A stretch of DNA of 64,000 nt from Micromonospora sp. HM5-17. Lineage in GTDB: Bacteria > Actinomycetota > Actinomycetes > Mycobacteriales > Micromonosporaceae. Shown here one piece after another: positions 11,032 through 46,350 of the stretch (the first letter of the stretch is position 1; each line of letters begins with the position of its first letter). Under the pieces are notes generated by a model. It saw only the letters and a list, made by a program, of their open reading frames with translations. It made no database searches and was not told the DNA's origin. The position numbers and the translations under genes were made by a program. The stretch is from NCBI RefSeq assembly GCF_003762835.1, contig NZ_RJWA01000006.1:248001-312000 (forward strand), in the 5' to 3' direction.

Positions 11032-11043
11032 GACAGACCGTCC

Positions 11044-31757: not shown

Positions 31758-32786
31758 TCAGCCGGGCGGTGGGGCGGTGCTCTCCCGGACCACCAGCTCG
31801 GTGACCAGATCGACGCGGCTCGCCGGCAGATCCCCGCCCCGGGCCAGGTCGAGCAGCATCTGGGTGGCGGTACCGGCCATGTCGCGCAGCGGCTGGTCGA
31901 CCGTGGTCAGGGCGGGACCGAGCCAGGCGGCCACCGGAATGTTGTCGTACCCGACCACGGAAAGGTCCCGGGGGATGTCGAGCCCGAGTCGTCGGGCCGC
32001 ACGGAACACCCCCATGGCCTGCGTGTCGGAGCCGGCGAAGATCGCCGTGGGCCGGTCGGGGCGGGTCAGCAGCTCCATCCCGTGCCGGTAGCCGGCGGTG
32101 AGCTGGAAGTTCCCGTACCGAACCAGCTCGGGGTCGACGGTGAGCCCGGCCTCGTCGTGGGCGAAGCGGAACCCGGCGACCCGCGCCCGGCTACAGAGCA
32201 CGTTCTCGGGGCCGGAAATGATCGCGATCCGCCGGTGGCCGAGTTCCAGCAGGTGGCGGGTGGCCAGCAGGCCGCCGTTCCAGTTGTTCGAGCCGACGGT
32301 GGGGACCGAGGCGGAGGTCGCGCTGTCGGTGTCGATGACGACGAACGGGATCATCTGCCGTGCGAGCCGCTGCTGCTGGGACTCGGTGAGGTGGCAGAGC
32401 ACGAGGAGCACCCCGAGGGGCCGGCGGGCCAGCACGCCGTCCAGCCACCACGCCGGTGGGCGGTGCCGTCCGCCGAGTTGGGAGAGGACGACGCCGACGT
32501 TGGCCGCGGTCGCCACCGCCTCCACCCCCCGGATGATCTCCATCGCCCACGCCGAGTCGAACTCGTGGAACACCAGGTCGACCTGGGCCGTGCTCGTCGG
32601 CCGCCGCCCCCGCCGGCGGTACCGGTGCCGCTTGAGGCTGGCCTCGATCCGGGCTCGGGTGTCGGGCGCGACGTCGGACCGCCCGTTCAGGACCTTGGAG
32701 ACCGTCGTGGTGGAGACGCCGACCTCGTCGGCGATGGTCGCGATCGTCGCGCCACCCGGTCCGACACTCGGACGGAACTTTGTCAT
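31758..32786 (-). CDS. LacI-family transcriptional regulator of the xylan-oligosaccharide operon
   Basis: 342 residues. The N-terminal helix-turn-helix and hinge are clear: TIATIADEVGVSTTTVSKVL (residues 14-33), followed by the hinge region KRHRYRRRGRRP. The sugar-binding core follows (VDLVFHEFDSAWAMEIIRGV, VVGYDNIPVAAWLGPALTTVDQP). GAGG precedes ATG 32786; the frame upstream is out of family. It diverges from the GH3-ABC-GH39-GH42 operon across 290 bases that hold two copies of a CGAAA-N-TTTCG palindrome, one close to each gene. This is the kind of operator bound by xylan/xylo-oligosaccharide LacI repressors such as BxlR/XlnR in Streptomyces. Repression relieved by imported oligosaccharide is the likely mode. 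Confidence 0.9.
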   Translation of the reverse strand: MTKFRPSVGPGGATIATIADEVGVSTTTVSKVLNGRSDVAPDTRARIEASLKRHRYRRRGRRPTSTAQVDLVFHEFDSAWAMEIIRGVEAVATAANVGVVLSQLGGRHRPPAWWLDGVLARRPLGVLLVLCHLTESQQQRLARQMIPFVVIDTDSATSASVPTVGSNNWNGGLLATRHLLELGHRRIAIISGPENVLCSRARVAGFRFAHDEAGLTVDPELVRYGNFQLTAGYRHGMELLTRPDRPTAIFAGSDTQAMGVFRAARRLGLDIPRDLSVVGYDNIPVAAWLGPALTTVDQPLRDMAGTATQMLLDLARGGDLPASRVDLVTELVVRESTAPPPG

Positions 32787-32806
32787 CACAGCCTCACACA
32801 GGGTGT

Positions 32807-32819
32807 CCGAAAGTTTCGG
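32807..32819. promoter_or_regulatory. LacI-type operator, proximal to the regulator gene
   Basis: CCGAAAGTTTCGG is a perfect palindrome about a central G, 21 bases before the start codon of the LacI-type gene. Its core matches the copy near the GH3 operon, so the regulator probably controls its own gene. Confidence 0.75.
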
Positions 32820-32940
32820 CAACGAACGTCGTCGCAGGCGCCCCGACCAGCCGAAGGTACGCGCGCGACGTGCCCGAACGGGTTGGGGTGTTTCGGGGAC
32901 GATACTCCATGCAACCAACGGAGAGAGCAGTTCAGAGACC

Positions 32941-32969
32941 TTGACACACCTCGACGCGAGGCCTAAGTT
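32941..32969 (+). promoter_or_regulatory. Sigma70-like promoter of the GH3/ABC/GH39/GH42 operon
   Basis: TTGACA (32941-32946) and TAAGTT (32964-32969) are separated by exactly 17 bases. This is a close match to the principal-sigma consensus in a 290-base gap and lies 108 bases before the GH3 start. The operator at 32997-33007 falls just downstream of the expected transcription start. Confidence 0.7.
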
Positions 32970-32996
32970 GCCCGGCACAGGTAACGCAGCTATTAC

Positions 32997-33007
32997 CGAA
33001 ACTTTCG
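32997..33007. promoter_or_regulatory. LacI-type operator, proximal to the GH3 operon
   Basis: CGAAACTTTCG, a palindrome about a central C. Flanked as CCGAAACTTTCG it is the reverse complement of the first twelve bases of the copy near the regulator gene. It lies about 20 bases beyond the predicted transcription start, where a bound LacI-type repressor would block transcription. Confidence 0.78.
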
Positions 33008-33076
33008 AGGACACGCCGACATGAGCCGCCCACCATCCGCACGGGTACGCCGCACATGTCGGGCTGGAAGGGTGGC

Positions 33077-35500
33077 ATGACAAGCGAGTTGTCCGCCGGC
33101 GACGGAGCCGCGTCCGAGGTGACCCCGGCCTGGCGCGATCCGCGACTCTCCCCCGCGGAGCGGGCCGCAGCGCTCATCCCGTTGATGTCGCTGGAGGAGA
33201 AGATCGCCCAACTCGTCGGGCTCTGGGTCGGCGCAGACGCCTCGGGAGGTGGGGTCGCGCCGTACCAGTCCGACATGACCAACGGCGTTCCGGAGTGGAA
33301 CGAGGCCATCCGGTACGGACTGGGCCAGCTGACCCGGCCGTTCGGCACGGCACCGGTCGATCCGGTCCTCGGCGCACGGTCGCTGGCCGCCTCCCAGGCG
33401 CAGATCATGGCGGCGAGCCGCTTCGGGATCCCGGCCCAGGTGCACGAGGAGTGCCTCACCGGTTTCGCCGCCTGGCGGGCGACGGTCTACCCGGCCCCGC
33501 TGTGCTGGGGGGCCTCCTTCGATCCCGAGCTGGTCGAGGCGATGGCCGGCCGGATCGGCCGGAGCATGCGAGCCGCCGGGGTGCACCAGGGCCTGGCGCC
33601 GGTGCTGGACGTCACCCGGGACTACCGCTGGGGACGGACCGAGGAGACCATCGGCGAGGACCCGTACCTGGTCGGGACGATCGGCGCGGCGTACGTCCGG
33701 GGCCTGGAACAGGCCGGGGTGGTCGCCACCCTCAAGCACTTCGCGGGCTACTCCGCATCCCGGGGCGGTCGCAACCTCGCGCCCGTGCCGATGGGGCGGC
33801 GCGAACTGGCCGACGTCATCCTGCCGCCGTTCGAGATGGCGCTGCGGCTCGGCGGTGCGCGGGCCGTGATGCACTCGTACGCCGAGATCGACGGCGTGCC
33901 GGTGGCGGCCGACCCGGGCATGCTGACCGACCTGCTCCGGAACGAGTGGGGCTTCACCGGCGTCGTGGTCGCGGACTACTTCGCGGTCCGCTTCCTGGAG
34001 ACGCTGCACGGCGTCGCGACGGACGCCGCCGGGGCGGCCCGGCTCGCTCTTCGCGCCGGTATCGACGTGGAGCTGCCGACGGTGGACGCGTACGGCGCGC
34101 CGCTGGTCGAGGCGGTGCGGGCCGGCACCGTCGACGAGGCACTCGTCGACCGGGCCCTGCACCGGGTGTTGAGTCAGAAGGCCGAACTCGGCCTCCTCGA
34201 CGAGGGGTGGCAACCCCTGCCCGACGGTGCCGAGGAGCTGCGCCTCGACGACGAGGCCGGCCGGGACCTCGCCCTCCGGCTGGCCCGGGAGTCGATCGTG
34301 CTGCTCCGCAACACCGACGGGCTGCTGCCGCTGCCCACCGACCGACGGATCGCGCTGGTCGGCCCGGCAGCCGACGACCCGATGGCGATGCTCGGCTGCT
34401 ACTCCTTCCCGCTGCACGTGGGGGTCCGGTATCCCGACCACGAGACCGGGGTGGAGATTCCGTCCCTGCGCGAGGCCCTCAGCGCGCTGTTCCCCAAGCT
34501 GACCTACGCGCCCGGCTGCGCCATCACCGGCGACGACACCTCCGGCATCGCGGAGGCGGTCACCGCGGCCGCGGAGAGCGACGTCTGCGTCGTCGCGGTC
34601 GGCGACCGGGCAGGGCTCTTCGGCCGCGGCACCTCCGGCGAGGGTTGCGACGCCAGCGACCTGCGCCTGCCCGGGGTGCAGGCCGATCTGGTCCGGGCCG
34701 TGCTGGCCACCGGCACCCCGGTGGTGCTGGTGCTGCTGGCCGGGCGGCCGTACGCGCTCGGACCGGAGTTCGACTCCGCCGCCGCCGTCGTCCAGGCGTT
34801 CTTCCCCGGCCAGCGTGGCGGGCAGGCCCTGGCCGAGATCCTTACCGGCGCGGTCAACCCGTCCGGGCGGCTGCCGGTCAGCGTCCCCCGGGACGCGGGC
34901 GGACTGCCGACGACGTACCTCGCCCCGCCGCTGGGTCGCCGGACCGAGGTGTCGTCGGTCGACCCGACCCCCGCGTTCCCGTTCGGCCACGGGCTCAGCT
35001 ACACGACCTTCGAGTGGAGCGACGCGGCGGTGCTCGACCCGGACGGCCGGCCGCGCGAGGTGCCCGACGGGGACGACGAGCCGGCCGCCTGGGCCGTGGA
35101 CGGTGAGGTGACCGTGCGGATCACGGTCCGCAACACCGGGAACCGGGCCGGCACCGAGGTCGTCCAGCTGTACCTGCACGATCCGGTCGCCCAGACGACC
35201 CGGCCGGTGGTCCGGCTGGTCGGCTACACCCGGGTCCCGCTGGAGCCGGGCGAATCCGCGGAGGTGAGCTTCGTGGTCCCCGCCGACGTCACGTCCTTCA
35301 CCGGCGTGCACGGCCGGCGCATCGTCGAGCCCGGCGACGTGGAGCTGCGGTTCGGACGGTCGAGTGGGGAGATGGCGGCCGCCGTGCCGCTGCGCCTCGT
35401 CGGCCCCGAACGCGAGGTCGGTCACCAGCGACGGCTGCTGTCGCTGGCCCGCGTCGAGCGCAGCGTCGCGCTCCCGCACACCCCGGAGGCCCGAGAATGA
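33077..35500 (+). CDS. Glycoside hydrolase family 3, probable beta-xylosidase
   Basis: 807 residues with the GH3 layout: an N-terminal (beta/alpha)8 domain with PLMSLEEKIAQLVGL, the LAPVLDVTRDYRWGRTEETI stretch, the ATLKHFAGYS Lys-His motif (220-221) and a predicted nucleophile Asp300 in GVVVADYFAVRF; then the alpha/beta sandwich with RESIVLLRNTDGLLPL, and a fibronectin-III-like end (VTVRITVRNTGNRAGTEVVQ). The nucleophile context is VADY in place of the usual SDW, the mark of a beta-xylosidase-like subgroup, and no signal peptide is present, so it acts inside on imported oligosaccharides. ATG 33077 has GGAAGGG upstream; ATG 33056 has none. It overlaps the first permease gene by four bases (ATGA). 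Confidence 0.9.
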   Translation: MTSELSAGDGAASEVTPAWRDPRLSPAERAAALIPLMSLEEKIAQLVGLWVGADASGGGVAPYQSDMTNGVPEWNEAIRYGLGQLTRPFGTAPVDPVLGARSLAASQAQIMAASRFGIPAQVHEECLTGFAAWRATVYPAPLCWGASFDPELVEAMAGRIGRSMRAAGVHQGLAPVLDVTRDYRWGRTEETIGEDPYLVGTIGAAYVRGLEQAGVVATLKHFAGYSASRGGRNLAPVPMGRRELADVILPPFEMALRLGGARAVMHSYAEIDGVPVAADPGMLTDLLRNEWGFTGVVVADYFAVRFLETLHGVATDAAGAARLALRAGIDVELPTVDAYGAPLVEAVRAGTVDEALVDRALHRVLSQKAELGLLDEGWQPLPDGAEELRLDDEAGRDLALRLARESIVLLRNTDGLLPLPTDRRIALVGPAADDPMAMLGCYSFPLHVGVRYPDHETGVEIPSLREALSALFPKLTYAPGCAITGDDTSGIAEAVTAAAESDVCVVAVGDRAGLFGRGTSGEGCDASDLRLPGVQADLVRAVLATGTPVVLVLLAGRPYALGPEFDSAAAVVQAFFPGQRGGQALAEILTGAVNPSGRLPVSVPRDAGGLPTTYLAPPLGRRTEVSSVDPTPAFPFGHGLSYTTFEWSDAAVLDPDGRPREVPDGDDEPAAWAVDGEVTVRITVRNTGNRAGTEVVQLYLHDPVAQTTRPVVRLVGYTRVPLEPGESAEVSFVVPADVTSFTGVHGRRIVEPGDVELRFGRSSGEMAAAVPLRLVGPEREVGHQRRLLSLARVERSVALPHTPEARE

Positions 35501-36486
35501 CCACACCACGCACGTTGAGTCCACCAGCGGAGCCGCAGAGCGTCGAGGCGAAGCCCGAGCCCGTCCGCCGGTCGCGTCGCCGCCGGCAGAGCTGGCGGCA
35601 GGCGCTGCGCCGGGACTGGCAGCTCTACTCGCTGGCGGTCCTGCCGCTGCTGTTCTTCCTGATCTTCCGCTACCTGCCGATGCTCGGCAACGTGATCGCG
35701 TTCCGACGGTTCCAGCCCGGCGGCAGCGTCTTCGGCGAGTACTGGGTCGGCCTGCGGTACATCCGGATGTTTCTCACCGACCCCACGTTCTGGAACGTCT
35801 TCACGAACACCGTCATCCTGGGCGCGCTGACCCTGCTGGTCTGCTTCCCGCTGCCCATCGTGCTCGCCCTGCTGCTCAACGAGGTGCGGGCCCGGCGGCT
35901 CAAGCGGTTCGTCCAGTCGGTGTCGTACCTGCCCCACTTCCTGTCGATCGTGATCGTGGCCGCGATGGTGATGCAGATGCTCTCCGTCGACGGCACGGTC
36001 AACCAGCTGATCCGGGCGTTCGGCGGCGACCCCATCCCGTTCCTGCAACGACCCGAGTGGTTCCGGACGATCTACGTCTCCTCGGAGGTGTGGCAGACCG
36101 TCGGCTGGGGCACGATCCTCTACCTCGCCGCGCTCACCACCATCGACGACAACCTGTACGAGGCGGCCCGGATCGACGGCGCCAATCGGTGGCGCCAGAC
36201 CTGGCACGTCACACTCCCCGGCATCCGGCCGACGATGGTGACGCTGCTGATCCTCAACATCGGCACCTTCATGGCGGTCGGATTCGAGAAGATCCTGCTG
36301 CTCTACAACCCGTTGACGTACCCGACCGCCGACGTGATCTCGACGTACCTGTACCGGATGGGCTTCCAGTCCAGCAACTTCAGCTACGCCGCCGCGATCG
36401 GGCTCTTCGAGGCCGTGATCGGGTTGACCCTGGTCCTGTCGGCAAACGCGATCTCGCGTCGGGTAGTGGGGACGAGCCTGTGGTGA
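35497..36486 (+). CDS. Sugar ABC transporter permease, LplB type
   Basis: 329 residues with six helices and a basic N-terminal tail. The inner-loop EAA motif is in YEAARIDGANRWRQTWHVTLPGI (EAARIDGAxRWRxxWxVTLPGI), which docks the ATPase. The sequence LAVLPLLFFLIFRYLPMLGNVIAF matches the LplB/YtcP-type permeases used for aldouronic acid, rhamnogalacturonan or algal oligosaccharides. It pairs with the next gene as heterodimer. The start ATG overlaps the GH3 stop. No ATPase gene occurs nearby, so the shared MsiK-type ATPase of actinomycetes is expected to energise it. Confidence 0.9.
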   Translation: MTTPRTLSPPAEPQSVEAKPEPVRRSRRRRQSWRQALRRDWQLYSLAVLPLLFFLIFRYLPMLGNVIAFRRFQPGGSVFGEYWVGLRYIRMFLTDPTFWNVFTNTVILGALTLLVCFPLPIVLALLLNEVRARRLKRFVQSVSYLPHFLSIVIVAAMVMQMLSVDGTVNQLIRAFGGDPIPFLQRPEWFRTIYVSSEVWQTVGWGTILYLAALTTIDDNLYEAARIDGANRWRQTWHVTLPGIRPTMVTLLILNIGTFMAVGFEKILLLYNPLTYPTADVISTYLYRMGFQSSNFSYAAAIGLFEAVIGLTLVLSANAISRRVVGTSLW

Positions 36487-37406
36487 CCATCGACACCGCC
36501 GCCGGCACCACCCCGAAGCGGCGCCCGCGCGGACCCCGGCCCACCCGGGGCTACCGGGTCTTCCAGGTGGTCAACGCCATCATCCTGACCGGCGTCGTGA
36601 TCGTGACGCTGTACCCGTTCGTCAACATCGTGGCCCGGTCGCTCAGCGACGAGGCGTACATCATCGCCGGCAAGGTGAACCTCGTCCCGCGCGGGTTCAA
36701 CCTGGACACCTACCGGCTGGTGATGTCCGACTCGCTGTTCTGGACGAACTACCGCAACACCGTGGTGTACACCGTCGTCGCCACGTTCATCTCGATCGTG
36801 CTGACCACGTGCTACGCGTACGTGCTGTCCAAGAAGCACCTCAAGGGGCGCAACGCGCTGATCGGGATCGCGGTCTTCACGATGTTCTTCACCGGCGGGC
36901 TGATCCCCAACTACGTGCTCATCACCAGCCTGGGCATGAAGAACACCATCTGGGCGGTGGTCCTGCCCAACGCGATCAACGTCTTCAACCTGCTGGTCAT
37001 GAAGGCGTTCTTCGAGAGCCTGCCGGTCGACCTGGAGGAGGCCGCCGCCGTCGACGGCCTGAACACGTACGGGATCCTGCTGCGGATCGTCCTCCCGCTG
37101 TCCAAGGCCGTGATCGCCACGATGGTGCTGTTCTACGCCGTCTCCTTCTGGAACTCGTGGTTCACCGCCTTCCTCTACATCGACCAACAGGACCTCCTCC
37201 CGGTGACCGTCTACCTGCGCAACCTGATCGCGGGGGCCACCGGCGCGGAGAACGTCGGCGCCATCAACGCCGCTGACGAGGTACAGGCCGAGGCCACGCT
37301 GAAGGCCGTCACCATCGTCCTCACCACCCTGCCCATCCTCCTGGTCTACCCCTTCATCCAGCGGTACTTCGTGTCCGGGGTCATGCTCGGCGCGGTGAAG
37401 GGCTGA
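36483..37406 (+). CDS. Sugar ABC transporter permease, YtcP type
   Basis: 307 residues with six helices. GTG 36483 overlaps the previous stop by four bases (GTGA), which fixes the start. LYPFVNIVARSLSDEAYIIAGK near the first helix and the EAA loop LEEAAAVDGLNTYGILLRIVLP are diagnostic; NYRNTVVYTVVATFISIVLT and the MFFTGGLIPNYVLITSLGM helix are typical of the YtcP subfamily. It forms the transport channel with the LplB-type permease and takes sugar from the lipoprotein encoded next. Confidence 0.9.
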   Translation: MTIDTAAGTTPKRRPRGPRPTRGYRVFQVVNAIILTGVVIVTLYPFVNIVARSLSDEAYIIAGKVNLVPRGFNLDTYRLVMSDSLFWTNYRNTVVYTVVATFISIVLTTCYAYVLSKKHLKGRNALIGIAVFTMFFTGGLIPNYVLITSLGMKNTIWAVVLPNAINVFNLLVMKAFFESLPVDLEEAAAVDGLNTYGILLRIVLPLSKAVIATMVLFYAVSFWNSWFTAFLYIDQQDLLPVTVYLRNLIAGATGAENVGAINAADEVQAEATLKAVTIVLTTLPILLVYPFIQRYFVSGVMLGAVKG

Positions 37407-37437
37407 CCTGGGCGGCGACGCAACCGCGAACCCCACC

Positions 37438-37454
37438 CCTTTCACGCTGAAAGG
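37438..37454 (+). promoter_or_regulatory. Hairpin overlapping the ribosome binding site of the binding-protein gene
   Basis: CCTTTCA (37438-37444) and TGAAAGG (37448-37454) form a perfect 7-bp inverted repeat around CGC. The right arm forms part of the GAAAGGAAG ribosome binding site of the ATG at 37462. A stem in the message between permease and binding-protein cistrons could set the expression ratio. Confidence 0.5.
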
Positions 37455-37461
37455 AAGTCCG

Positions 37462-39102
37462 ATGTTCGACAGATCCCGGCGCCGAGCAGCGGTGATCGCT
37501 GCCGGTTTGCTCACGGTGTCGCTCGCCGCCTGCGGGAGCGGCGACGAATCCACGGAATCCGACCTCTCCGAGCACCGCGTCGGCGCGATGGCCGAGTACA
37601 AGGTCGGGGATCAGTTCCGGGCCACCGAGCCGTTGACGTTCTCGATGTTGTACAACAACCATCCGAACTACCCGCTGAAGAACGACTGGCTGTTCTGGAC
37701 GGAGCTGACCAAGCGGACCAACGTCACGATCGAGCCGGTCGCCGTACCGCTGAGCGACTACGAGCAGAAGCGGAGCCTGCTGATCGGCGCCGGCGACGCA
37801 CCGCTCATCATTCCGAAGACGTATCCGGGCCAGGAGGACACCTTCGTCTCCTCGGGGGCCATCCTACCGGTCAGCGACTACCTGGACCTGATGCCCCATT
37901 TCAAGGACAAGATCGAGAAGTGGAACCTCCACCCTGAGATCAACCAGCGCCGCCAGGCGGACGGCAAGTTCTACCTGCTCCCCGGACTGCACGAGAAGCC
38001 GTGGCAGGACTACTCGCTGGCGATCCGGACCGACATCCTCGAGGAGCTCAACCTCGAGATCCCGAAGACCTGGGACGAGCTGTACACCGTCCTCAAGGCG
38101 ATGAAGGCGAAGTACCCGGACACGTACCCGTTCTCGGACCGGTTCAGCCAGCCCAACCCGGGCGGCAACCTGTTGAACATCCTCGCGGCGTCGTACGGGC
38201 TGGAGGGCGCCGGCTGGAACTTCCAGCACGTCAGCTGGGACGCGAACGCCAAGAAGCTCTTCTACACCGGCGCCAGCGAGCAGTACCGGCAGATGTTGAC
38301 GTACCTCAACAAGCTGGTCAAGGAGGGACTGCTCGACCCGGAGAGCTTCACCCGAACCGACGACCAGGCCCGCCAGAAGCTGGCCAACGGCAAGTCGTTC
38401 GTGATCAGCAGCAACGCCCAGACCCTGGTCAACGACTACCGGCCGGACCTGGCCAAGACCAACCCGAAGGCGAAGATCGTGAAGATCCCGCTGCCGATCG
38501 GCCCGGCGGGTGAGATCAACCCCGCCAGCCGGCTGGAGAACGGCATCATGATCTCCAAGAAGGCCCGGGACAGCAAGTACTTCGTCGCGATGATGCAGTT
38601 CATCGACTGGCTCTGGTACTCCGACGCGGGACAGGAGTTCGCCAAGTGGGGCGTCGAGGGTACGACCTTCGTCCGGGATGCCAACGGCAAGCCGACCCTG
38701 GCCCCCGACGTCGACGTCGTCGGGCTGAACCCCAAGGGCACCAAGCACCTGCAGAAGGACTTCGGCTTCTACAACGGCGTCTTCGCCTACGGCGGCAAGC
38801 CGGAACTCGTGCAGGCGTTCTTCTCGCCGGAGGAGCAGGAGTTCCAGAAGGTGATGAACGCCCGGCCGCCCAGGCCGGTGATGCCGCCGTTCCCGTTCAC
38901 CGACGAGGAGCGCGAGCAGATCTCGCTCTGGGCGACGCCGCTGCGGGACTTCGTCTACCAGGCGACGCTCCAGTTCATCCTCGGCCAGCGCGACCTCAGC
39001 CAGTGGGACGCCTACGTGGCCGAGCTGAAGGGCAAGAACATGGACGCCTACATGGACCTGGTCCAGAAGGCGTACGAGCGCTACCAGAAGAACAACGGCT
39101 GA
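37462..39102 (+). CDS. Extracellular oligosaccharide-binding lipoprotein
   Basis: 546 residues. The start is a lipoprotein signal: basic MFDRSRRRAA, hydrophobic core, and lipobox LAAC with Cys24 as the lipid site. The mature part is a large solute-binding protein of the LplA/YtcQ type (LTFSMLYNNHPNYPLKNDWL, NGIMISKKARDSKYFVAMMQ, EFQKVMNARPPRPVMPPFPFT split across the last third), known for oligosaccharides such as aldotetraouronic acid. AAAGGAAG precedes ATG 37462. It delivers the sugar to the two permeases encoded just upstream. Confidence 0.92.
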   Translation: MFDRSRRRAAVIAAGLLTVSLAACGSGDESTESDLSEHRVGAMAEYKVGDQFRATEPLTFSMLYNNHPNYPLKNDWLFWTELTKRTNVTIEPVAVPLSDYEQKRSLLIGAGDAPLIIPKTYPGQEDTFVSSGAILPVSDYLDLMPHFKDKIEKWNLHPEINQRRQADGKFYLLPGLHEKPWQDYSLAIRTDILEELNLEIPKTWDELYTVLKAMKAKYPDTYPFSDRFSQPNPGGNLLNILAASYGLEGAGWNFQHVSWDANAKKLFYTGASEQYRQMLTYLNKLVKEGLLDPESFTRTDDQARQKLANGKSFVISSNAQTLVNDYRPDLAKTNPKAKIVKIPLPIGPAGEINPASRLENGIMISKKARDSKYFVAMMQFIDWLWYSDAGQEFAKWGVEGTTFVRDANGKPTLAPDVDVVGLNPKGTKHLQKDFGFYNGVFAYGGKPELVQAFFSPEEQEFQKVMNARPPRPVMPPFPFTDEEREQISLWATPLRDFVYQATLQFILGQRDLSQWDAYVAELKGKNMDAYMDLVQKAYERYQKNNG

Positions 39103-39272
39103 TCACCCGCTGCGCCGGTCCGGTCGTGCCCGCCGCGGGCGCGGCCGGACCGGGCCGTCCCGGGTCCGCGCCCGGCTCGGCCGGCGCGGCGGCCCGCGAC
39201 GACCGGGGATCGCCCCGCCCCGGTCCGTACGCCGGACCCGGTCCGCGCGGCGACCCGCACAGGAAGACTCTC
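39103..39272 (+). other. Spacer between binding-protein gene and GH39
   Basis: 170 bases without a gene, the only sizeable gap inside the operon. It is extremely GC-rich with several short complementary runs. It may attenuate transcription into the downstream hydrolases, but no clean terminator is visible. Confidence 0.35.
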
Positions 39273-40880
39273 ATGCGCATCACCGTTCCGGAGCACCCCT
39301 CGGGCCGGCTGCCCGACGCCTGGCGAGCCTGCGTCGGCACGGGCCGATTCGAGCTGGCGCTGCGCCGTGACTACCAGGACTCGCTGGCCCTGATCCAGCG
39401 TGAGATCGGCTTCCGGCACATCCGGGGGCACGGGCTGCTCAGCGACGGCGTCGGCGTGTACCGGCCGTACGAGTACCAGGGGTCGCGCCGAGTCCGGTAC
39501 ACCTTCGGTTACGTCGACCAGGTGATCGACTCGTACCTCGACCTCGGGATCCGCCCCTTCGTGGAGCTGGGCTTCATGCCGGCCGCCCTCGCCTCCGGCG
39601 ACCAGACCGTGTTCTGGTGGCGCGGCAACGTCACCCCGCCCCGCTCCTTCGCGGAGTGGGCCGACCTGGTCCGGGCCACCGTGGCCCACCTCGTCGACCG
39701 GTACGGCCTCGCCGAGGTCCGTCGCTGGCCCATCGAGGTGTGGAACGAACCCAACCTTCCGGAATTCTGGCGGGGCGCCGACGAGGCCGCGTACCACCGG
39801 CTGTACGAGGTGACGGCGCACGCCGTCAAGGAGGTGGACGCCGAACTCCAGGTCGGGGGGCCGGCCATCTCCCCCGGCGCCGACGACTGGCTGCCGCGCT
39901 TCGCCGACTTCGTCGCCGCCCGCGACGTCCCGATCGACTTTGTCAGCAAGCACGCCTACACCTCCGGGCCGGCCCAGCACGTGCCGTTCGGGGTGCACCA
40001 GACGCTGCGGCCGGCGGCCAACCTGCTGGAGCAGTTCGCCACCCCGCGCGACCTGCTCCGGGACACCGCCCTGGCCGGGCTGCCGGTGCACATCACCGAG
40101 TTCAGCTCGTCGTACCGGCCGGACAATCCGATCCACGACACCGCCTTTCACGCGGCGTACCTCGCCCCCGTGCTGGCCGCCGGCGGCGACCTGGTCGACT
40201 CCTTCTCCTACTGGACCTTCAGCGACATGTTCGAGGAGGTGGGCGTCCCGACGGCGCTGTTCCACGGCGGGTTCGGCCTGCTCACCCACCGGCAGATCAA
40301 GAAGCCCACCTACCACCTGTACGCCTTCATGGCCCGCCTCGGCGACCAGATCCTGGCCCGGGGGGCGGACCACCTGGTGACCCGGGACGCCGACGGCCGG
40401 GTCACCGTGCTGGCCTGGGCGCCGGTGGACGTCACCGGCCGGTCCCCGGTCGACCGGCACGCGCTGCGGCTCTCCGTCCCGCTCGGCGCCCCACGGGCGA
40501 CGGGCGCCGGCCCGACCTCGGCGTACGTCCACCGTTCGTCCGTGCACGAGGAGGTGGGCAACGCCTGGACCGCCTGGTGCGAGATGGGCCAGCCCCGGTC
40601 TCCCCGGCCCCGACAGCTCGAGGCGCTGCGGGAGGCGGCCGAGCCGGGACGCAGCCACCGGAGGCTGCCGGTCGTGGCCGGACGGGTCGACCTCGACCTC
40701 GACCTCGCGCGGCACGAGGTGACCCTGGTCGAGATCACCCCGGTCGTCGACGAGACCCCGCCGTGGTGGGACGAGAACCGGCTGCTCGGGCTATCCTCCG
40801 AAGCCCCGGCCGACGCCGCGGCCGCGGTCGGGGGCGGGGACGGCCCCGGCGGTGGGGCCGGACGGGAGGATCGGCAATGA
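39273..40880 (+). CDS. Glycoside hydrolase family 39, probable beta-xylosidase
   Basis: 535 residues. The (beta/alpha)8 barrel carries the acid/base Glu159 in IEVWNEPNLPEFW and the nucleophile Glu276 in PVHITEFSSS. GFRHIRGHGLLSD and FSYWTFSDMFEE are further GH39 marks. No signal peptide is present, so it acts inside the cell. Residues from about 385 form a beta-rich accessory part; the last ~40 residues are a low-complexity Ala/Gly tail. ATG 39273 has AGGAAG upstream. It overlaps the YesL-type gene by four bases (ATGA). Family members are beta-xylosidases or alpha-L-iduronidases; the context favours xylosidase. Confidence 0.9.
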   Translation: MRITVPEHPSGRLPDAWRACVGTGRFELALRRDYQDSLALIQREIGFRHIRGHGLLSDGVGVYRPYEYQGSRRVRYTFGYVDQVIDSYLDLGIRPFVELGFMPAALASGDQTVFWWRGNVTPPRSFAEWADLVRATVAHLVDRYGLAEVRRWPIEVWNEPNLPEFWRGADEAAYHRLYEVTAHAVKEVDAELQVGGPAISPGADDWLPRFADFVAARDVPIDFVSKHAYTSGPAQHVPFGVHQTLRPAANLLEQFATPRDLLRDTALAGLPVHITEFSSSYRPDNPIHDTAFHAAYLAPVLAAGGDLVDSFSYWTFSDMFEEVGVPTALFHGGFGLLTHRQIKKPTYHLYAFMARLGDQILARGADHLVTRDADGRVTVLAWAPVDVTGRSPVDRHALRLSVPLGAPRATGAGPTSAYVHRSSVHEEVGNAWTAWCEMGQPRSPRPRQLEALREAAEPGRSHRRLPVVAGRVDLDLDLARHEVTLVEITPVVDETPPWWDENRLLGLSSEAPADAAAAVGGGDGPGGGAGREDRQ

Positions 40881-41566
40881 GCGACGCAGTCGGCACGCGC
40901 CGCCAGTTCGGGACCGGCCCACTCTCCCGGGCCGCGGCGCTGATCTACAGCCTGCTGGTGGTGGAGGTCCTGCTCGTGCTCGGCACACTGCCGGGCTTGG
41001 TCCCCCTGATCCTGCTGGATCGGGACGTCAGCAACCTGCCGCTGGCCGCCGCCTGCGCGGTCCCGCTCGGTCCGGCGGTCGCGGCCGCGCTGTACGCGCT
41101 GCACCACCACCGGGGTGACCTGACCGAGCTGCATCCGGCGGCCGCGTTCTGGCGCGGTTACCGGGCGAGTCTCGGCCCGGTACTGAAGATCTGGGTCCCG
41201 CTCCTGCTGTGGCTGACCATCGTCGCGGTGAACCTCGCCAACTTCCACGCCGCGGCGGTACCGGGCTGGTGGCGGGTACCGCTGATCATGGTGGGGGTGG
41301 TCACCACCCTCTGGGGGGTCAACGCGCTGGTCGTCACCGCCCTCTTCGTCTTCCGGACCCGGGACGTCGCCCGGCTGGCGGTGCACTTCCTCGGCCGTAC
41401 CCCGCAGGTCACGCTCGGCACCGCCGGCCTGCTGCTCACGGCGGCCGTGGTCACGGCCGTCACCTCGGAGGCGGTGCTGGCGCTGCTCGGCTCCGTCTTC
41501 ACCCTGGCGCTGCTGGGAACCAGCCGCCCGATGATCAACCGGATACGGGAGGAGTTCGTCGCGTGA
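40877..41566 (+). CDS. YesL/DUF624-type membrane protein
   Basis: 229 residues with about five helices: AALIYSLLVVEVLLVLGTLPG, LAAACAVPLGPAVAAALYAL, WVPLLLWLTIVAVNLANF, VPLIMVGVVTTLWGVNALV and the last two (VTLGTAGLLLTAAVVTAV, ALLGSVFTLALLGTS). The DUF624 family, to which YesL belongs, is nearly always encoded with polysaccharide-degradation genes, though its action is not settled. Position between GH39 (4-base overlap) and GH42 (4-base overlap) places it firmly in the operon. Confidence 0.82.
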   Translation: MSDAVGTRRQFGTGPLSRAAALIYSLLVVEVLLVLGTLPGLVPLILLDRDVSNLPLAAACAVPLGPAVAAALYALHHHRGDLTELHPAAAFWRGYRASLGPVLKIWVPLLLWLTIVAVNLANFHAAAVPGWWRVPLIMVGVVTTLWGVNALVVTALFVFRTRDVARLAVHFLGRTPQVTLGTAGLLLTAAVVTAVTSEAVLALLGSVFTLALLGTSRPMINRIREEFVA

Positions 41567-43608
41567 GCAAGGCGGCCGGTCGCCTGCCCCGGACGTCGAA
41601 GGTGCCGTTCGGTGGGGACTACAACCCGGAGCAGTGGCCCGAGGAGGTGTGGAAGGAGGACTACCGGCTCTTCGACGCCGCCCGGATCGACACCGTCACG
41701 CTCGGCGTCTTCACCTGGGCGCTGACCCAGCCGGCGCCCGACGTCTACGACTTCAGCACGCTGGACCGGATCGTCGCCCGGGCCGCCGCCGAGGGCCGGA
41801 ACATCTGCCTGGCGACCGGGACCGGCGCCCACCCGGCCTGGCTGGCCCGGGCCCACCCGGAGGTGACCCGGGTGGACTTCGAGGGGCGCCGGCACCGGTA
41901 CGGCCAACGGCACAACTCGTGCCCCAGTTCGCCGGTGTTCCGCCGGCTCTCCGCCGAGCTGGCCCGCCGGGTCGCGGCCCGGTACGCCGACAACCCGGCC
42001 GTGGTCGCCTGGCACGTCGGCAACGAGTACGGCGGCGCCTGCTACTGCGACCTCTGCGCCGCCGGCTTCCGGGACTGGCTGCGCCGGAAGTACGGCACCC
42101 TGGAGGCGCTCAACACCGCCTGGTACACCACGTTCTGGTCGCACACCTTCACCGACTGGGCGGAGATCGAGCCGCCGTCGGCGCTCACCGAGCACTGGCG
42201 CGGCCCGAACCACACCGCGTTCCAGGGCATCACCCTGGACTACCTGCGCTTCATGTCCGACGCCATGCTCGCCAACTTCATCGACGAGAAGGCCGCGATC
42301 CGCGAGTCGAGCGACCTGCCGGTCACCACGAACTTCATGGGCATGTACCGGCCGATCGACTACCACCGCTGGGCGCCGCACCTCGACTTCGCCTCCTGGG
42401 ACAACTATCCGCCGGACGACCGCTCGCCGGCCTGGATGGCACTGACCCACGACCTGATGCGCGGACTCAAGGACGGCCAGCCGTTCTGGCTGATGGAGCA
42501 GACCCCGAGCTACACCGCCTCGCGGGACGTGAACCCGCTGAAGCGGCCCGGGGTGATGCGGCTGTGGAGCTGGCAGGCGGTGGCGCACGGCGCGGACGCC
42601 GTCCTCTTCTTCCAGATGCGGGCCTCCCGGGGCGCCTGCGAGAAGTACCACGGCGCGGTGATCGGCCACGCCGGCCGCGACGACACCCGGGTCTTCCGCG
42701 AGGTGGCGGCGCTCGGCGCGGAGCTGGAGCGGCTCGGCGGGGCCACGCTGGGCGCCCGCACCCCGGCCCGGGTGGCGCTGCTCTTCGACTGGGACAGCTG
42801 GTGGGCGCTGGAGATCTCCGACGGACCGTCCCGGCTGGTCCGCTACCAGCAGGTGGTGCACGCCTACTACCGGGCGCTCTGGGAGGCCGGGGTAGACGTC
42901 GACGTCGTCGCGGTCACCGCCGACCTGTCCCGCTACGACGTGGTCGTCGCCCCGGCGCTGCACATGCTCAAGGGCGACCTGGCCCAGCGGCTGACGGAGG
43001 TGGCCGCGCGCGGCGGCTCCGTCCTGACGACGTTCCTCTCCGCCCGGGTGGACGAGGACGACCAGGCGTTCCTGATGGACATACCGGGCCCGCTCGGACC
43101 GCTGATGGGGATCCGGATCGACGAGTGGGACGCCCGCGAGGCGGACGTGGTCAACCCGGTGCGACTCGGCGACGGCGACGACGCGCGGGAGGTCGGGTCC
43201 CGGCTCGTCTTCGAACTGGTGATCCCCCAGGGGGCCGAGGTGGTCGGGACGTACCAGGCCGACTTCTACGCCGGCACCCCGGCGGTGACCCGCAACCGCT
43301 TCGGTGCCGGGGAGGGCTGGTACGTCGCCACCGGGCTGGACCAGGCCGGCGTCTCCTGGGTGGTCCGGCGGGTGCTGGCGCGGCACGACCTGCTCGGGCC
43401 GTACCCGGACGTGCCCGAGCTGGAGACGACGCTCCGGGTCGCCCCGGACGGGACCCGGCTGCGCTTCCTGCTCAACCACTCGGCCGAGCCGGTCGAGGTG
43501 GCGGCGATCTGGGCCGGGACGGACCTGGTGACCGGCGAGACGGTCACGCCGGGCCAGCCGCTGCGGCTGGCGGGATACGGGGTCCTGGTGCTGCGCGAGG
43601 AGGGCTAG
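41563..43608 (+). CDS. Glycoside hydrolase family 42 (beta-galactosidase-like)
   Basis: 681 residues with the three GH42 domains: catalytic barrel, trimerisation alpha/beta domain (RVALLFDWDSWWALE region onward) and small C-terminal beta domain. The acid/base is Glu155 in HVGNEYGG and the nucleophile Glu312 in LMEQTPS. The cysteines at 120, 160, 162 and 165 (C...CYCDLC) match the zinc site of GH42 trimeric beta-galactosidases. GTG 41563 overlaps the preceding stop (GTGA). Enzymes of the family remove beta-galactosyl or alpha-L-arabinopyranosyl residues; here side chains of imported heteroxylan oligosaccharides are a sensible target. A bidirectional hairpin follows. Confidence 0.92.
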   Translation: MSKAAGRLPRTSKVPFGGDYNPEQWPEEVWKEDYRLFDAARIDTVTLGVFTWALTQPAPDVYDFSTLDRIVARAAAEGRNICLATGTGAHPAWLARAHPEVTRVDFEGRRHRYGQRHNSCPSSPVFRRLSAELARRVAARYADNPAVVAWHVGNEYGGACYCDLCAAGFRDWLRRKYGTLEALNTAWYTTFWSHTFTDWAEIEPPSALTEHWRGPNHTAFQGITLDYLRFMSDAMLANFIDEKAAIRESSDLPVTTNFMGMYRPIDYHRWAPHLDFASWDNYPPDDRSPAWMALTHDLMRGLKDGQPFWLMEQTPSYTASRDVNPLKRPGVMRLWSWQAVAHGADAVLFFQMRASRGACEKYHGAVIGHAGRDDTRVFREVAALGAELERLGGATLGARTPARVALLFDWDSWWALEISDGPSRLVRYQQVVHAYYRALWEAGVDVDVVAVTADLSRYDVVVAPALHMLKGDLAQRLTEVAARGGSVLTTFLSARVDEDDQAFLMDIPGPLGPLMGIRIDEWDAREADVVNPVRLGDGDDAREVGSRLVFELVIPQGAEVVGTYQADFYAGTPAVTRNRFGAGEGWYVATGLDQAGVSWVVRRVLARHDLLGPYPDVPELETTLRVAPDGTRLRFLLNHSAEPVEVAAIWAGTDLVTGETVTPGQPLRLAGYGVLVLREEG

Positions 43609-43612
43609 TCCG

Positions 43613-43653
43613 GGTCGGGTGGGCGCGCCCCGGGGCGGGACGCCCACCCGACC
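43613..43653. terminator. Bidirectional terminator between GH42 and GH67 genes
   Basis: GGTCGGGTGGGCG at 43613-43625 is perfectly inverted at 43641-43653 (13 bp), with a 15-base loop that can pair further (CGCCCC/GGGGCG). It stands in the 52-base gap between two convergent genes, four bases from one stop and seven from the other. Confidence 0.75.
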
Positions 43654-43660
43654 GTCGTCC

Positions 43661-45775
43661 TCAGTAGATCCGGCGACCGTGCGCGTCCGGCACCCCGGAC
43701 TTGCGGTAGAAGTACGTGTTGATCTGGTCGCGCCACTCCTCGGCGGAGCGCACCTGCTCGTCGAGGCGCTCCCGCACCCGGGCCGCCACCGCCGGGTCGA
43801 CCAGGTCGGCGATGTCGTCCCAGCGCCGCCGCAGCTCGGCCGCCTGCTCCGCCCCGGCGAAGTGGGTGTCGTAGATGTGCTGGATGACCGTGACGCCGCT
43901 GTGCAGCACGTGGTCGTACGGGACGTGGTGGAAGAAGAGCAGCAGCTCGTCGGGGCAGGTGTCCCGCGACTCGTACACCTCCGACCAGGGGGCCGGGTAC
44001 TGGCCGGTGAAGCCGGTCCCGGTCGCCCGGGTCCGGTCCACGCCGATGCCGTCCCGGTCCGCGAAGTGGTAGGTGCCCCACGGGGTGTACTCGTAGCCGT
44101 CGACGTCCGGTCCGTAGTGGTGTCCCGGCCGGACCATGAAACCGACGCCGAGCGGGGCGGTGTAGCGCTCGTACGTCCGCCAGGAGTCGTCCATGATCGC
44201 GTGGAGCGTGCGGCGCAGCCGGTCCGGGTCGGCCGTGGCCGCGGGGACGAAGGTCAGCTCGATCCACTCGTCGAGCACGGCCAGCGGGTCCAGCCGGGGG
44301 TCCCAGGCGAGCCGGCCGAAGGCGTACAGGTTGGCCTGGGCGAGCGGGTGGCCGGTCCAGAAGGGGTCGTCGCCGACGTTGGAGACCGCGACCAGCCCTC
44401 CACCCTCCGGGGCCGCCCGGTCGCCGGCCGTCCCGGCGACCACGTCGGCGACGGTCGGGCCGCTGGGGCCCCAGAGGCCGAAGCCGAGCACCTCGCTCCA
44501 GAGTGGCCCGAGGTAGCAGACGTGCCGCTGCTGGCCGGTGTACTCCTGGGTGATCTGAAGTTCGACCGCGAGCCGGGTGGCGGGCATCGCGGCGATCACC
44601 GGGGAGACCGGCTCGCGCACCTGGAAGTCCATCGGGCCGTACTTCACCTGGAGGATGACGTTGTCCCGGAACTGGCCGTCGAGCGGGGCGAAGTGGTCGT
44701 ACGCCGCCCGGGCGCGGTCGGTGGAGCGGTCCCGCCAGTCCTGCCGGTGGTTGTAGACGAAGGCACGCCAGTGCACCACCCCGCCGAACGGGGCCAGCGC
44801 CTCGGCGAGCAGGTTCGCGCCGTCGGCGTGGTTGCGCCCGTACGCGAAGGGGCCCGGCTGCCCCTCCGAGTCGGCCTTCACCACGTAGCCGCCGAAGTCG
44901 GGGATCGCGTCGTACACCTGGCGGGTCGTCTTGGCCCACCAGGCCCGGACGTGCTCGTCCCACGGGTCGGCGGTCGGCAGTCCACCGACGGTGCGCGGCG
45001 CGGCGAAGCTGACCGACAGGTGCACCTGGATCCCGTACGGCCGCAGCACGTCGGCGATCGTGGCGACGTCCCCGAGCCGGTCGGTGAGCAGCCGCGCCTC
45101 GGTGGCGTGCACGTTGACGTTGTTCACCGTGATCGCGTTGATCCCACACGCGGCGAGGAGCCGCCCGTAGGCCCGGATCCGGGACAGGTCGGTGGTGAGG
45201 GCGCCGTCCCGCCAGAAGATCGAGCCGCCCGAGTAGCCCCGCTCCACCTGCCCCATCACCGGGTGCACGTCGACGTTGTCCCAGTGGTTGAGCATGCGCC
45301 GCCGCAGCGCCGGCCGGTACCGGCGTGGCGGGTGCTCGGCCCCGAACGCCGCCTCGCCGAGCCGGACCAGGTGGAAGAGTCCGTAGAGCAGTCCGGCCGG
45401 GGCGTCGGCGAGCAGCACCGTGCACCCGTCGTGCCGGGCCAGCGCGAAGCCCTCGGGGCCGAGGCCGGCGTCGGGTCCGGCCGGTGTGTCCGCCAGCGTG
45501 GCGCGGACCGCCACCGCCGCGGCGGGCAGCGGGTCCGCCGTGGTCAGCGCGAGGACCAGGTCGTACGGCTCCTCGATCGCCGCGGCCTGGTCCGCTCCGG
45601 ACGTGGGGTGTCGCAGACCGCCGCCGTACCGGCCAGCGGCCTCGGCGAGTTCCTGGCGCACCGTGTCGACGAGGGGGCCAGCGCCGCAGAGCAGGGTACG
45701 GCGGGTGCCGAGCGGCCGGAACACCTCCGGCGGCAGCCAGGCCGGGTGGACGTCGGGGGGCTCGGGGGTGGTCAC
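43661..45775 (-). CDS. aguA: Glycoside hydrolase family 67 alpha-glucuronidase
   Basis: 704 residues, the length of the family. Three catalytic acids are visible: Glu304 in [12 protein letters not shown], Asp366 in FAPLDGQF, and Glu388 in [34 protein letters not shown] is split over the hallmark barrel start ([15 protein letters not shown]), and [13 protein letters not shown] and YYP-like TYHFADRDG segments complete it. It removes 4-O-methyl-glucuronic acid from aldouronic acids after import; there is no signal peptide. GTG 45775 has GGAGAAACG upstream. It is convergent with, and separately transcribed from, the GH42 operon, and I find no CGAAA-N-TTTCG box before it. Confidence 0.95.
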
Positions 45776-46020
45776 GCGTTTCTCCGGATCGGATGGGACC
45801 GCCGCGAGAGGGGCCGGACCCCGGGTCCGGATGTCCGGCCGGTCCGACGGCCTGCGGGGTGTGTCGTGGTCGCACTCTAGTGCATGGCGCGGCCGCCGTC
45901 CGGTCGGCCGTGCTCGCCACGCTGGCCGGCAACCTCACCGCTCCGCTCGGGGTCGCGGCGGCGAGGGCGCCCCCGCCCACCGTCCCGGTCTGACGGCGGC
46001 TCGGCGCGACCGGAAGGGCG
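45776..46020. other. Spacer upstream of GH67
   Basis: 245 bases that should hold the GH67 promoter and the end of the DUF6510 gene. No gene, repeat or operator of the CGAAA-N-TTTCG type is visible. Confidence 0.4.
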
Positions 46021-46350
46021 TCACATCACCGGTGGCGCCAGACCCGGCGCCATGAGCGGCTCCGCCGGCATCGGCACCCGCAGGTACGCCGCGCCGCGCA
46101 GGTCCAGCCAGGCGTTGGTCGGGGTCCGGACCAGCCGGAGCATCACCGCCTCGCAGGCCGGGCATCGGGCAACCACGCCGGGGGCGTGCGCGTAGACCCG
46201 GAGCCCGGCCACCGGCCCGGTCCGCCCACACGAGGCGCACCGGCCGGTGGCGGTCGTCAGGTCCACCGCGAACACCTCGGCCAGCGGACCGGCCAGCATG
46301 TTGCCGTCCAGGTGGTCCATTCCGGGCTGCCCCGGGTCGGGCTCGGTCAT
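46021..46350 (-). CDS. DUF6510 zinc-ribbon-like protein
   Basis: 109 residues. The start MTEPDPGQPGMDHLDGNMLAGPL leads to two CxxC pairs, RCASCGRTG and RCPACEAV, twenty-five residues apart, a likely zinc ribbon, and a final WLDLRGAAYLRVPMP. LDGN(xx)AGPLxE(V/I)F is the hallmark of DUF6510 proteins, which are commonly next to genes for sulfite-oxidase-like oxidoreductases. GGGAGGCGAG directly precedes ATG 46350. It is third on the strand after the oxidase and reductase genes. Confidence 0.82.
   Translation of the reverse strand: MTEPDPGQPGMDHLDGNMLAGPLAEVFAVDLTTATGRCASCGRTGPVAGLRVYAHAPGVVARCPACEAVMLRLVRTPTNAWLDLRGAAYLRVPMPAEPLMAPGLAPPVM

Follow-up and report, generated by a model that had tools for sequence, protein, structure and literature searches.

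A predicted aldouronate import-and-digestion locus in Micromonospora with counterparts across Actinomycetota

INTRODUCTION

In Geobacillus stearothermophilus T-6, the aldotetraouronic acid cluster (aguEFG, aguA, and xynB1) is reported to include a GH39 xylosidase, XynB1 (PMC4194401). The cluster of Paenibacillus sp. JDR-2 is described as an importer accompanied by intracellular GH67, GH10, and GH43 enzymes (PMC4765114). For the Streptomyces bxl xylobiose system (BxlR, BxlEFG, and BxlA), the operator motif of BxlR is given as being of the CGAA(N)TTCG type, with xylobiose as the putative ligand (PMC12772271). Another point of comparison is the AlgQ1/AlgQ2 alginate importer of Sphingomonas A1. 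In the openly licensed literature, we found no title or abstract opening on a cluster such as the one described below (searches on YesL/DUF624; GH42 with GH67; GH67 with Streptomyces and LacI; and Micromonospora with xylan or glucuronidase).

Here, we analyze a 64,000-nt stretch of DNA from Micromonospora sp. HM5-17 (the window). The system it carries is of a known kind, but has a distinct transporter lineage, repressor sites of its own, and a near-constant membrane protein. Aldouronate uptake followed by intracellular breakdown, as proposed in an earlier note on this DNA, is strongly supported by gene co-occurrence, structure matches, and operator evidence. On this basis, the cluster is very probably an aldouronate import-and-digest locus.

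RESULTS AND DISCUSSION

A nine-gene cluster that recurs across Actinomycetota

The aldouronate-type cluster comprises nine genes (31758 to 45775): a LacI-family repressor, a GH3 enzyme, two permeases, a lipoprotein, a GH39 enzyme, a YesL/DUF624 protein, a GH42 enzyme, and a convergent GH67 enzyme. Pfam cut-offs are exceeded by LacI, GH3, both permeases (BPD_transp_1), the lipoprotein (SBP_bac_1), GH39, and GH67; the grouping of these genes made in the earlier note is borne out by the Pfam and NCBIfam profile matches. The same gene order is found again in relatives and across Actinomycetota, which argues against a chance neighborhood. The window gave no match to Rfam and no tRNA. The N-termini of GH3, GH39, GH42, and GH67, read by eye, carry no visible signal peptide, in agreement with the breakdown inside the cell that had been proposed. 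The binding protein has an LAAC lipobox, likewise identified by eye.

The cluster has in common with that of G. stearothermophilus T-6 a CUT1-type importer, an intracellular GH67, and a XynB1-type GH39, but differs in its divergent LacI, its actinobacterial host, and its extra GH3, GH42, and YesL genes. GH39 had earlier been taken for an addition to aldouronate clusters, which it is not, since XynB1 is already reported from T-6 (PMC4194401). As in the JDR-2 type, a CUT1 importer stands beside an intracellular GH67, but GH3, GH39, and GH42 are found here instead of intracellular GH10 and GH43, for which the Pfam scan gave no match among the cluster proteins. The LacI repressor and the CGAA(N)TTCG-type operator are features shared with the bxl system as described (PMC12772271). 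A bxl-like Streptomyces locus (L186) consists of a divergent LacI followed by a solute-binding protein (SBP), two permeases, and GH3; its LacI and GH3 are 55 and 61% identical to ours, respectively. In contrast, the importer of the present cluster is of another, larger-SBP type (23 to 27% identity), and GH67, GH39, GH42, and YesL are extra. Searched with the L186 binding protein, the Micromonospora genome gave a best match of 35%, around which no clear permease pair was seen by eye in the open reading frame (ORF) list.

Xylan-type hydrolases and an accompanying GH42

The GH3 gene (33077 to 35500, plus strand; ORF listed from 33056) encodes a predicted beta-xylosidase/alpha-L-arabinosidase, scoring 1115.7 against a cut-off of 1050 for the NCBIfam model of that name (NF052329). 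GH39 (39273 to 40880, plus strand, with a corrected start near 39273) is a predicted beta-xylosidase. It matches 2bs9 at 556 bits, with the WNEP and HITE glutamates aligned, and its best Protein Data Bank (PDB) matches bear the name beta-xylosidase. We take these matches to be Geobacillus XynB1, and the aligned glutamates to correspond to its catalytic E160 and E278. The GH67 alpha-glucuronidase (43661 to 45775, minus strand) matches PF07488 and PF07477 far above cut-off; its middle and C-terminal domains were recognized by Pfam, but no N-terminal domain was, and the best alignment with known structures leaves out residues 1 to 106. Its E304, D383, and E411 are kept and are invariant in 11 aligned sequences, and presumably correspond to the catalytic E285 and D364/E392 of the T-6 enzyme.

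GH42 (41563 to 43608, plus strand, with a corrected start near 41563 in ORF 41209 to 43608) has the three-domain architecture of a beta-galactosidase-family enzyme (PF02449, PF08532, and PF08533). ORF 41634 to 43667 was rejected as the GH42 frame, as it gave no family match. GH42 is no obvious xylan enzyme, and we count this against the aldouronate reading. GH42 and YesL are members of the unit, but what we say of their substrate and role is tentative.

One extension of the aldouronate reading is that GH42 uncaps alpha-L-arabinopyranosyl or galactosyl glucuronic acid (GlcA) side chains, enabling GH67 to act. Some GH42 enzymes are alpha-L-arabinopyranosidases, and GH42 is part of the unit at 23 of 29 family and 24 of 42 named loci (drawn from the top 80 of at least 589), but it is absent from all five Bacilli loci of our neighborhood tally. 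Furthermore, 3tts, a PDB entry named beta-galactosidase, is the top match at 706 bits; 5xb7, which we take to be the GH42 alpha-L-arabinopyranosidase, follows far behind at 148 bits. In Arabidopsis primary-wall xylan, GlcA is reported to carry a 1,2-linked pentose that may be alpha-L-arabinopyranose, while the Eucalyptus cap, according to a title cited in the same paper, is alpha-galactosyl (PMC4528235). An alpha-galactosyl cap is not an expected GH42 target. Overall, we consider this extension doubtful.

An importer lineage with a uronate-binder-like lipoprotein

An LplB-type ABC permease (permease 1; 35497 to 36486) and a YtcP-type ABC permease (permease 2; 36483 to 37406, with a corrected start near 36483) precede a large solute-binding lipoprotein (37462 to 39102), all on the plus strand. 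The lipoprotein is the predicted aldouronate receptor, a prediction that draws on PDB sequence and structure matches. The top 13 chains of its Foldseek list represent three proteins: AlgQ1, AlgQ2, and a glycosaminoglycan-related (chondroitin-disaccharide) binder. It thus has the binding-protein fold and the acidic oligosaccharide class in common with AlgQ1/AlgQ2, but the identity is ~23%, and a different sugar is expected. This low identity to uronate binders counts against our reading, as do the human-milk-oligosaccharide and fructan binders further down the same list.

A tree of permease 1 groups the window with 36 rows from actinobacteria and seven from Bacilli in a single clade (SH-aLRT 99, quick method). 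The permease used is the best match anywhere in each locus, not always beside GH67; long branches were flagged, and one actinobacterial row (L110) lies outside the clade with a 25% match. Fifteen of the 18 Paenibacillus/Cohnella-type rows, a set to which JDR-2 itself does not belong, fall outside the window's lineage: 10 in another clade, at 37 to 42% identity to the window's permease, and five elsewhere. The other three (Paenibacillus L123, L140, and L152) fall inside it. The importer is of an actinobacterial lineage, common to seven Bacilli loci. The parallel with Paenibacillus drawn in the earlier note is thus one of function, with a different gene set and, for most of the rows compared, another importer lineage.

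Two candidate palindromic operators and their putative targets

The start of the BxlR-like LacI-family repressor (31758 to 32786, minus strand; Pfam LacI and Peripla_BP_3) was placed near 32786 because the helix-turn-helix match begins only at residue 113 of the long ORF; a start at 33083 was dropped on the same ground. Ten genomes (nine titled Streptomyces and one “Actinobacteria bacterium”) each yield a best match to it at 58 to 60% identity. By its LacI domain structure and the CGAA-N-TTCG sites upstream of putative target genes, it is a candidate BxlR-type repressor. Two candidate operators lie in the LacI-GH3 gap: operator 1 (CCGAAAGTTTCGG, 32807 to 32819), 20 bp upstream of the LacI start and kept in relatives, and operator 2 (CCGAAACTTTCGA, 32996 to 33008), 68 bp upstream of the GH3 start. 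Both are perfect CGAAASTTTCG palindromes, the only two in the 6.17-Mb genome, and resemble the reported BxlR motif (PMC12772271). Across 31 loci, 54 of 62 operator-like 13-mers (two mismatches at most) are found no more than 1.5 kb upstream of the operon (52 by a scripted rule, plus the window's own two, which that rule missed).

Neither the window nor any of 11 convergent relatives has an operator-like site with two mismatches or fewer upstream of GH67. Nor did we find a common operator for GH67 genes in convergent orientation; the most frequent words are GC-rich and occur in at most 5 of 12 upstream regions. Two palindromes were chosen after viewing the sequences: CCGGTAAATTTACGG, present in two loci (L062 and L064), and GCACTNNAGTGC, present once in the window, upstream of GH67. 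The LacI-type control that had been claimed for the whole cluster is therefore supported for the GH3-to-GH42 operon by its operator sites, but is unproven for GH67, which is on the opposite strand with no operator upstream.

The genome has three GH10 genes, all on contigs other than the cluster's. Two were judged secreted by eye, one with CBM2 and one with ricin-type lectin and GH62 domains, and two of the three, with promoters at C1:934224 and C10:13722, have one-mismatch operator copies upstream. A one-mismatch site pair on another contig (C50) lies beside very long ORFs that look NRPS-like by eye and was put down to chance. Among 31 GH10 loci (part of the matches in 21 genomes), seven have an upstream operator-like site (eight sites in 17.8 kb), and the 24 without one count against our explanation. 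As a control, 19 other palindromes of the same letters gave zero sites in the same upstream stretches, in addition to a first control made up mostly of coding sequence. These data suggest joint control of some secreted xylanases, uptake, and digestion by a single repressor.

Co-inheritance of the lipoprotein and GH67

The operator evidence also bears on a rival explanation, in which the operon imports neutral or arabinose-decorated xylo-oligosaccharides, and GH67 is a neighbor working on the same monosaccharide pool that the importer does not serve. Such a reading would fit the xylobiose named as putative ligand of BxlR, whose operator type is found here (PMC12772271), the name beta-xylosidase/alpha-L-arabinosidase for GH3, and the convergent, operator-less GH67. 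It would also fit the 19 of 61 genomes in which the SBP and GH67 genes are both present but not within 10 kb (they are within that distance in the other 42). However, the two genes are mostly gained and lost together. Among 150 family genomes, 63 have an orthologue of the SBP (identity of 50% or more), and GH67 occurs in 59 of these, against 3 of the 87 others (Fisher P about 6e-33, kinship ignored). In seven variable genera, both genes occur in 25 genomes and neither in 33, and no genome is discordant; this count covers genomes with a listed genus and excludes g49 (the discordant genus), g40, and genera that do not vary. Four genomes with the SBP and no GH67 (G041, G045, G054, and G063), and one with GH67 and no SBP (G079, a congener of G054), count against the aldouronate reading. 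GH67 is also present in Bacilli loci that share this importer lineage, although these loci were found via GH67. Moreover, the lipoprotein's structure matches are uronate binders, and the SBP solved in a xylan-utilization study comes only 43rd in its Foldseek list. We thus regard uptake of neutral oligosaccharides alone as improbable.

Less probable still is a role in the use of pectin side chains (rhamnogalacturonan or galactan), which the names YesL, LplB/YtcP, and GH42 (a beta-galactosidase family) might suggest, YesL and LplABC-type importers being found in the yes region of Bacillus subtilis: GH39, GH3, and GH67 are xylan-type, the cluster proteins scanned gave no GH105, GH53, or lyase match, and the operator also precedes some xylanase genes.

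A nearly constant membrane protein

The YesL/DUF624 multi-helix membrane protein (40877 to 41566, plus strand, with a corrected start) scores 22.9 against a DUF624 cut-off of 24.2 in the window scan and 25.7, above cut-off, in a genome search. It is present in 29 of 29 family loci and in 41 of 42 named loci (from the same top 80 of at least 589), and hence with the importer in 70 of 71 loci, or 69 of 70 distinct ones, as L068 and L098 are one genome in both sets. GH3, GH39, and GH42, in contrast, come and go. YesL accompanies the importer more often than any hydrolase but GH67, which was itself the criterion for choosing the named loci; these all contain GH67 by selection and favor close relatives. 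Thirty family loci were hand-picked out of 76 genomes in which the SBP had a match. The tally accepted YesL from 20% identity and other genes from 45 to 55%, but only the Bacilli depend on the 20% limit: family YesL matches are 41 to 68% identical in loci with an SBP of at least 45%. A fold search of solved structures gave nothing at E ≤ 0.001 (best E 0.4), and the choline transporter-like 7wwb is a weak match (TM 0.58, E 1.5). YesL/DUF624 could be a constant fourth part of the importer (such as a subunit for substrate release, stability, or coupling) instead of a neighborhood by-product, a proposal we hold at somewhat less than even confidence.

A model for aldouronate import and digestion

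Alongside the gene content, conservation, GH67 co-inheritance, and operator sites established here by computation, we infer a ligand, an inducer, repression, enzyme products, and an ATPase partner. In the aldouronate reading, secreted GH10 xylanases, coded elsewhere, would cut glucuronoxylan to (methyl)glucuronosyl-xylo-oligosaccharides. The lipoprotein would bind these acidic oligosaccharides, and the two permeases would import them, energized by a MalK/MsiK-type ATPase. The Pfam scan found no ATPase gene among the cluster proteins; an ABC_tran protein with OB_MalK is coded elsewhere in the genome (L167:15797-16981), and an ATPase of this type is the likely partner of the CUT1 importer. In the cytoplasm, GH67 would take off glucuronic acid, and GH39 and GH3 would release xylose from the xylo-oligosaccharide. 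UxuA (PF03786) is absent from 144 of the 150 genomes, including this one, which counts against our explanation; UxaC is present in this genome, but in a separate neighborhood with a pectate lyase. The BxlR-like LacI may repress the GH3-GH42 operon and its own gene through the two palindromic operators, and probably also some secreted xylanases through weaker operator copies, until released by a xylo-oligosaccharide.

These results point to aldouronates as the likely ligand of an importer lineage of Actinomycetota and some Bacilli, and identify a likely control site for it. They also make the role of the YesL/DUF624 family directly testable and provide a concrete hypothesis for the frequent occurrence of GH42 beside GH67.

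Results

Gene content and layout

The cluster (window 31758-45775) lies in a 6.17-Mb genome of 51 contigs. Pfam and NCBIfam searches confirmed the LacI-type regulator, GH3, two permeases, binding lipoprotein, GH39, GH42, and GH67, and the claimed gene set does stand together at one locus. The DUF624/YesL protein fell slightly below the Pfam cut-off in one search and above it in another. With gene starts revised from sequence, all genes from GH3 through GH42 are on the plus strand, with LacI divergent and GH67 convergent. Four-base overlaps join GH3 to the first permease, the first permease to the second, GH39 to YesL, and YesL to GH42, while the lipoprotein gene is bordered by gaps of 55 and 170 bases. 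By eye, the binding protein has a lipobox and no signal peptide is visible at the N-termini of GH3, GH39, GH42, or GH67, as had been claimed for the hydrolases. Nothing indicates cluster membership for an MFS transporter gene (30112-31584), which follows LacI in the same orientation, or for an M28 peptidase (28541-29995). Immediately upstream of GH67 and co-oriented with it are a DUF6510 protein and an FAD/NAD oxidoreductase (46021-47174).

The binding lipoprotein and its importer lineage

AlgQ2 heads the list of PDB sequence matches to the lipoprotein. The first 13 structure matches of its predicted model (mean pLDDT 89.5) are chains of three proteins: AlgQ2, AlgQ1, and a glycosaminoglycan-related binder; human-milk-oligosaccharide and fructan binders come next. 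Identity to the AlgQ-type and glycosaminoglycan binders is ~23%, and the structure matches therefore support the class of the lipoprotein, not its ligand.

Of 150 family genomes, 76 have the lipoprotein (E up to 1e-60) and 62 have GH67. GH67 is present in 59 of the 63 genomes with the lipoprotein at 50% identity or more, versus 3 of the remaining 87. Where both occur (61 genomes), GH67 lies within 10 kb of the lipoprotein gene in 42 (22 on the opposite strand, 20 on the same strand), farther along the same contig in 12, and on another contig in 7. Among genomes with a listed genus, seven internally varying genera comprise 25 genomes with both genes and 33 with neither; two genomes of genus g49, both fragmented, are discordant, and one genome of genus g40 has the lipoprotein without GH67.

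A GH67 profile was also run against named genomes. The same lipoprotein lineage (at least 45% identity) occurs in 42 of the best 80 of at least 589 loci, both in Actinomycetota (Micromonospora, Streptomyces, Nonomuraea, Cellulomonas, Pseudonocardia, and others) and in Bacilli (Lederbergia, Neobacillus, Bacillus, Jeotgalibaca, and one Paenibacillus). In a first-permease tree of 68 rows, built by a quick method and with several long branches flagged, one clade (SH-aLRT 99) unites the window with 36 actinobacterial and seven Bacilli rows, Micromonospora being nearest to the window. This proximity, and a Hamadaea (G060) among the genomes of the same family, point to the Micromonosporaceae as the source family. 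A second clade comprises 12 rows, all from Bacilli such as Paenibacillus and Cohnella, that are 37-42% identical to the window; rows outside both clades are placed elsewhere. Thus, at least two importer lineages occur in the vicinity of GH67 genes. The Geobacillus importer AguEFG has only 33.4% identity to relatives of the Paenibacillus JDR-2 importer (excerpt of PMC4194401).

YesL follows the importer

We compared 29 family loci that contain the lipoprotein with the 42 named lipoprotein loci (from the best 80 of at least 589), the two sets overlapping by one genome (G060; L068 = L098). YesL is present in 29 and 41 of these, respectively, GH42 in 23 and 24, GH39 in 19 and 23, GH3 in 10 and 11, and LacI in 22 and 10; GH67 occurs in 22 family loci, and every named locus carries it by selection. 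This constant tie to importer genes and looser tie to the enzymes suggests that YesL may have a transporter role. YesL is the sole DUF624 match in its genome, and a PDB search with its predicted fold (pLDDT 88.6) returned no significant match. A small membrane protein in Evansella (L132:891-1529), DUF624-like by eye, lies in a GH67 neighborhood with another importer lineage.

Putative LacI operators link the cluster to xylan

Two perfect CGAAASTTTCG palindromes lie 189 bp apart in the LacI-GH3 gap, one 20 bp upstream of LacI and the other 68 bp upstream of GH3. They are the only perfect matches in the genome (~0.5 expected from base composition), where a reversed control pattern has none; one mismatch allowed, there are 21 sites versus 5 for the control. 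Relatives hold operator-like sites in the same places. When as many as two mismatches are allowed, at least two such sites precede the operon in 21 of 31 loci (window included) and a single one does so in 10, so that 54 of the 62 sites lie ahead of it; the window's two were added by hand, having been missed by the script's first-gene rule. A one-mismatch site on contig C12 lies ~250 bp from the start of a secreted-looking alpha-1,3-glucanase-type protein (L206:298-3969), either by chance or as part of a wider regulon.

The palindrome resembles CGAANNTTTCG from Streptomyces SirexAA-E and the BxlR motif CGAA-N-TTCG from S. thermoviolaceus (excerpt of PMC12772271). LacI proteins 58-60% identical to the window's occur in each of ten genomes, nine titled Streptomyces. 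In six of eight such loci examined, LacI adjoins a GH3 of 61-63% identity and has a perfect or one-mismatch site within ~400 bp, on the side away from GH3; the other two have neither such a GH3 nor an operator-like site. At L186, a LacI (55%) diverges from a bxl-like SBP-permease-permease-GH3 set, and the gap between them contains an operator-like site; no such site was found at L187, a tenth locus.

The genome has three GH10 xylanase genes elsewhere, and one-mismatch sites lie 192 and 225 bp before two listed starts (the first of which may lie further in). Across relatives and the own genome, 7 of 31 GH10 loci have a one-mismatch site upstream and 24 have none. This amounts to 8 sites in 17.8 kb, versus 2 in a mostly coding control of 73.7 kb; in the same GH10 upstream stretches, the 19 palindromes built from other permutations of the half-site have zero matches. 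The operator therefore links the cluster to xylan.

The LacI-type control proposed in the earlier note is supported for the operon from GH3 to GH42 but not for GH67: neither the window nor any of 11 relatives with a convergent GH67 has an operator-like site ahead of that gene. In relatives whose GH67 shares the operon's strand, the gene could be transcribed together with the operon. A perfect palindrome, GCACTCTAGTGC, at window 45872-45883, ~100 bp upstream of GH67, is the only GCACTNNAGTGC in the window and may provide GH67 with separate control. The palindrome CCGGTAAATTTACGG precedes GH67 in two relatives from a single genus (L062:17252-17266 and L064:16267-16281) and is possibly a different operator for GH67.

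Hydrolases and uronate fate

In PDB comparisons, GH67 aligns over ~600 residues to Geobacillus alpha-glucuronidase and keeps the residues that we take to be catalytic there. GH39 has both catalytic glutamates (best alignment 556 bits), and its best-matching entries are presumably Geobacillus XynB1. GH3 exceeds the curated NCBIfam cut-off for beta-xylosidase/alpha-L-arabinosidase, and its top two PDB matches carry the names beta-xylosidase and xylosidase. GH39 had been regarded as an added element; however, xynB1 already sits alongside GH67 in the aldotetraouronic acid cluster of Geobacillus stearothermophilus T-6, and its product breaks down the xylotriose left over by GH67 (excerpt of PMC4194401), so that GH39 agrees with known logic.

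GH42, with the usual three domains, is closest to PDB 3tts, a beta-galactosidase. One idea is that it removes caps from glucuronic acid side chains: in Arabidopsis, the xylan of primary walls has a pentose attached to glucuronic acid, assigned as possibly alpha-L-arabinopyranose (excerpt of PMC4528235). Against this, its nearest PDB entries are named beta-galactosidase, and it is far from the entry that we take to be an arabinopyranosidase. A second GH42 on contig C45 (L213:1176-5897) lies next to a GH31 gene whose reading frame contains a one-mismatch operator-like site. In Micromonospora sp. ATCC 39149, GH67 appears as two tblastn pieces (58% and 78%; L118 near 10001-12044), perhaps by a frameshift or sequencing error.

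UxuA had no match in 144 of the 150 family genomes, the own genome among them, and UxaC is present in 119, again including the own genome. There, on contig C51 (L167), UxaC lies within the same 17 kb as a LacI, a binding protein, an oxidoreductase, a pectate lyase, and a MalK-like ATPase.

Discussion

The cluster is real. Its main interpretation, uptake and intracellular breakdown of glucuronoxylan-derived aldouronates, is likely right and is supported by the co-occurrence with GH67 and the tie between operator and xylan. This kind of system is already known; titles and abstract beginnings in the open-licence literature searched held no description of the present combination and spread. The variant lies in the combination of this importer lineage with the repressor sites and a constant YesL protein, and in how that combination is spread through the Actinomycetota.
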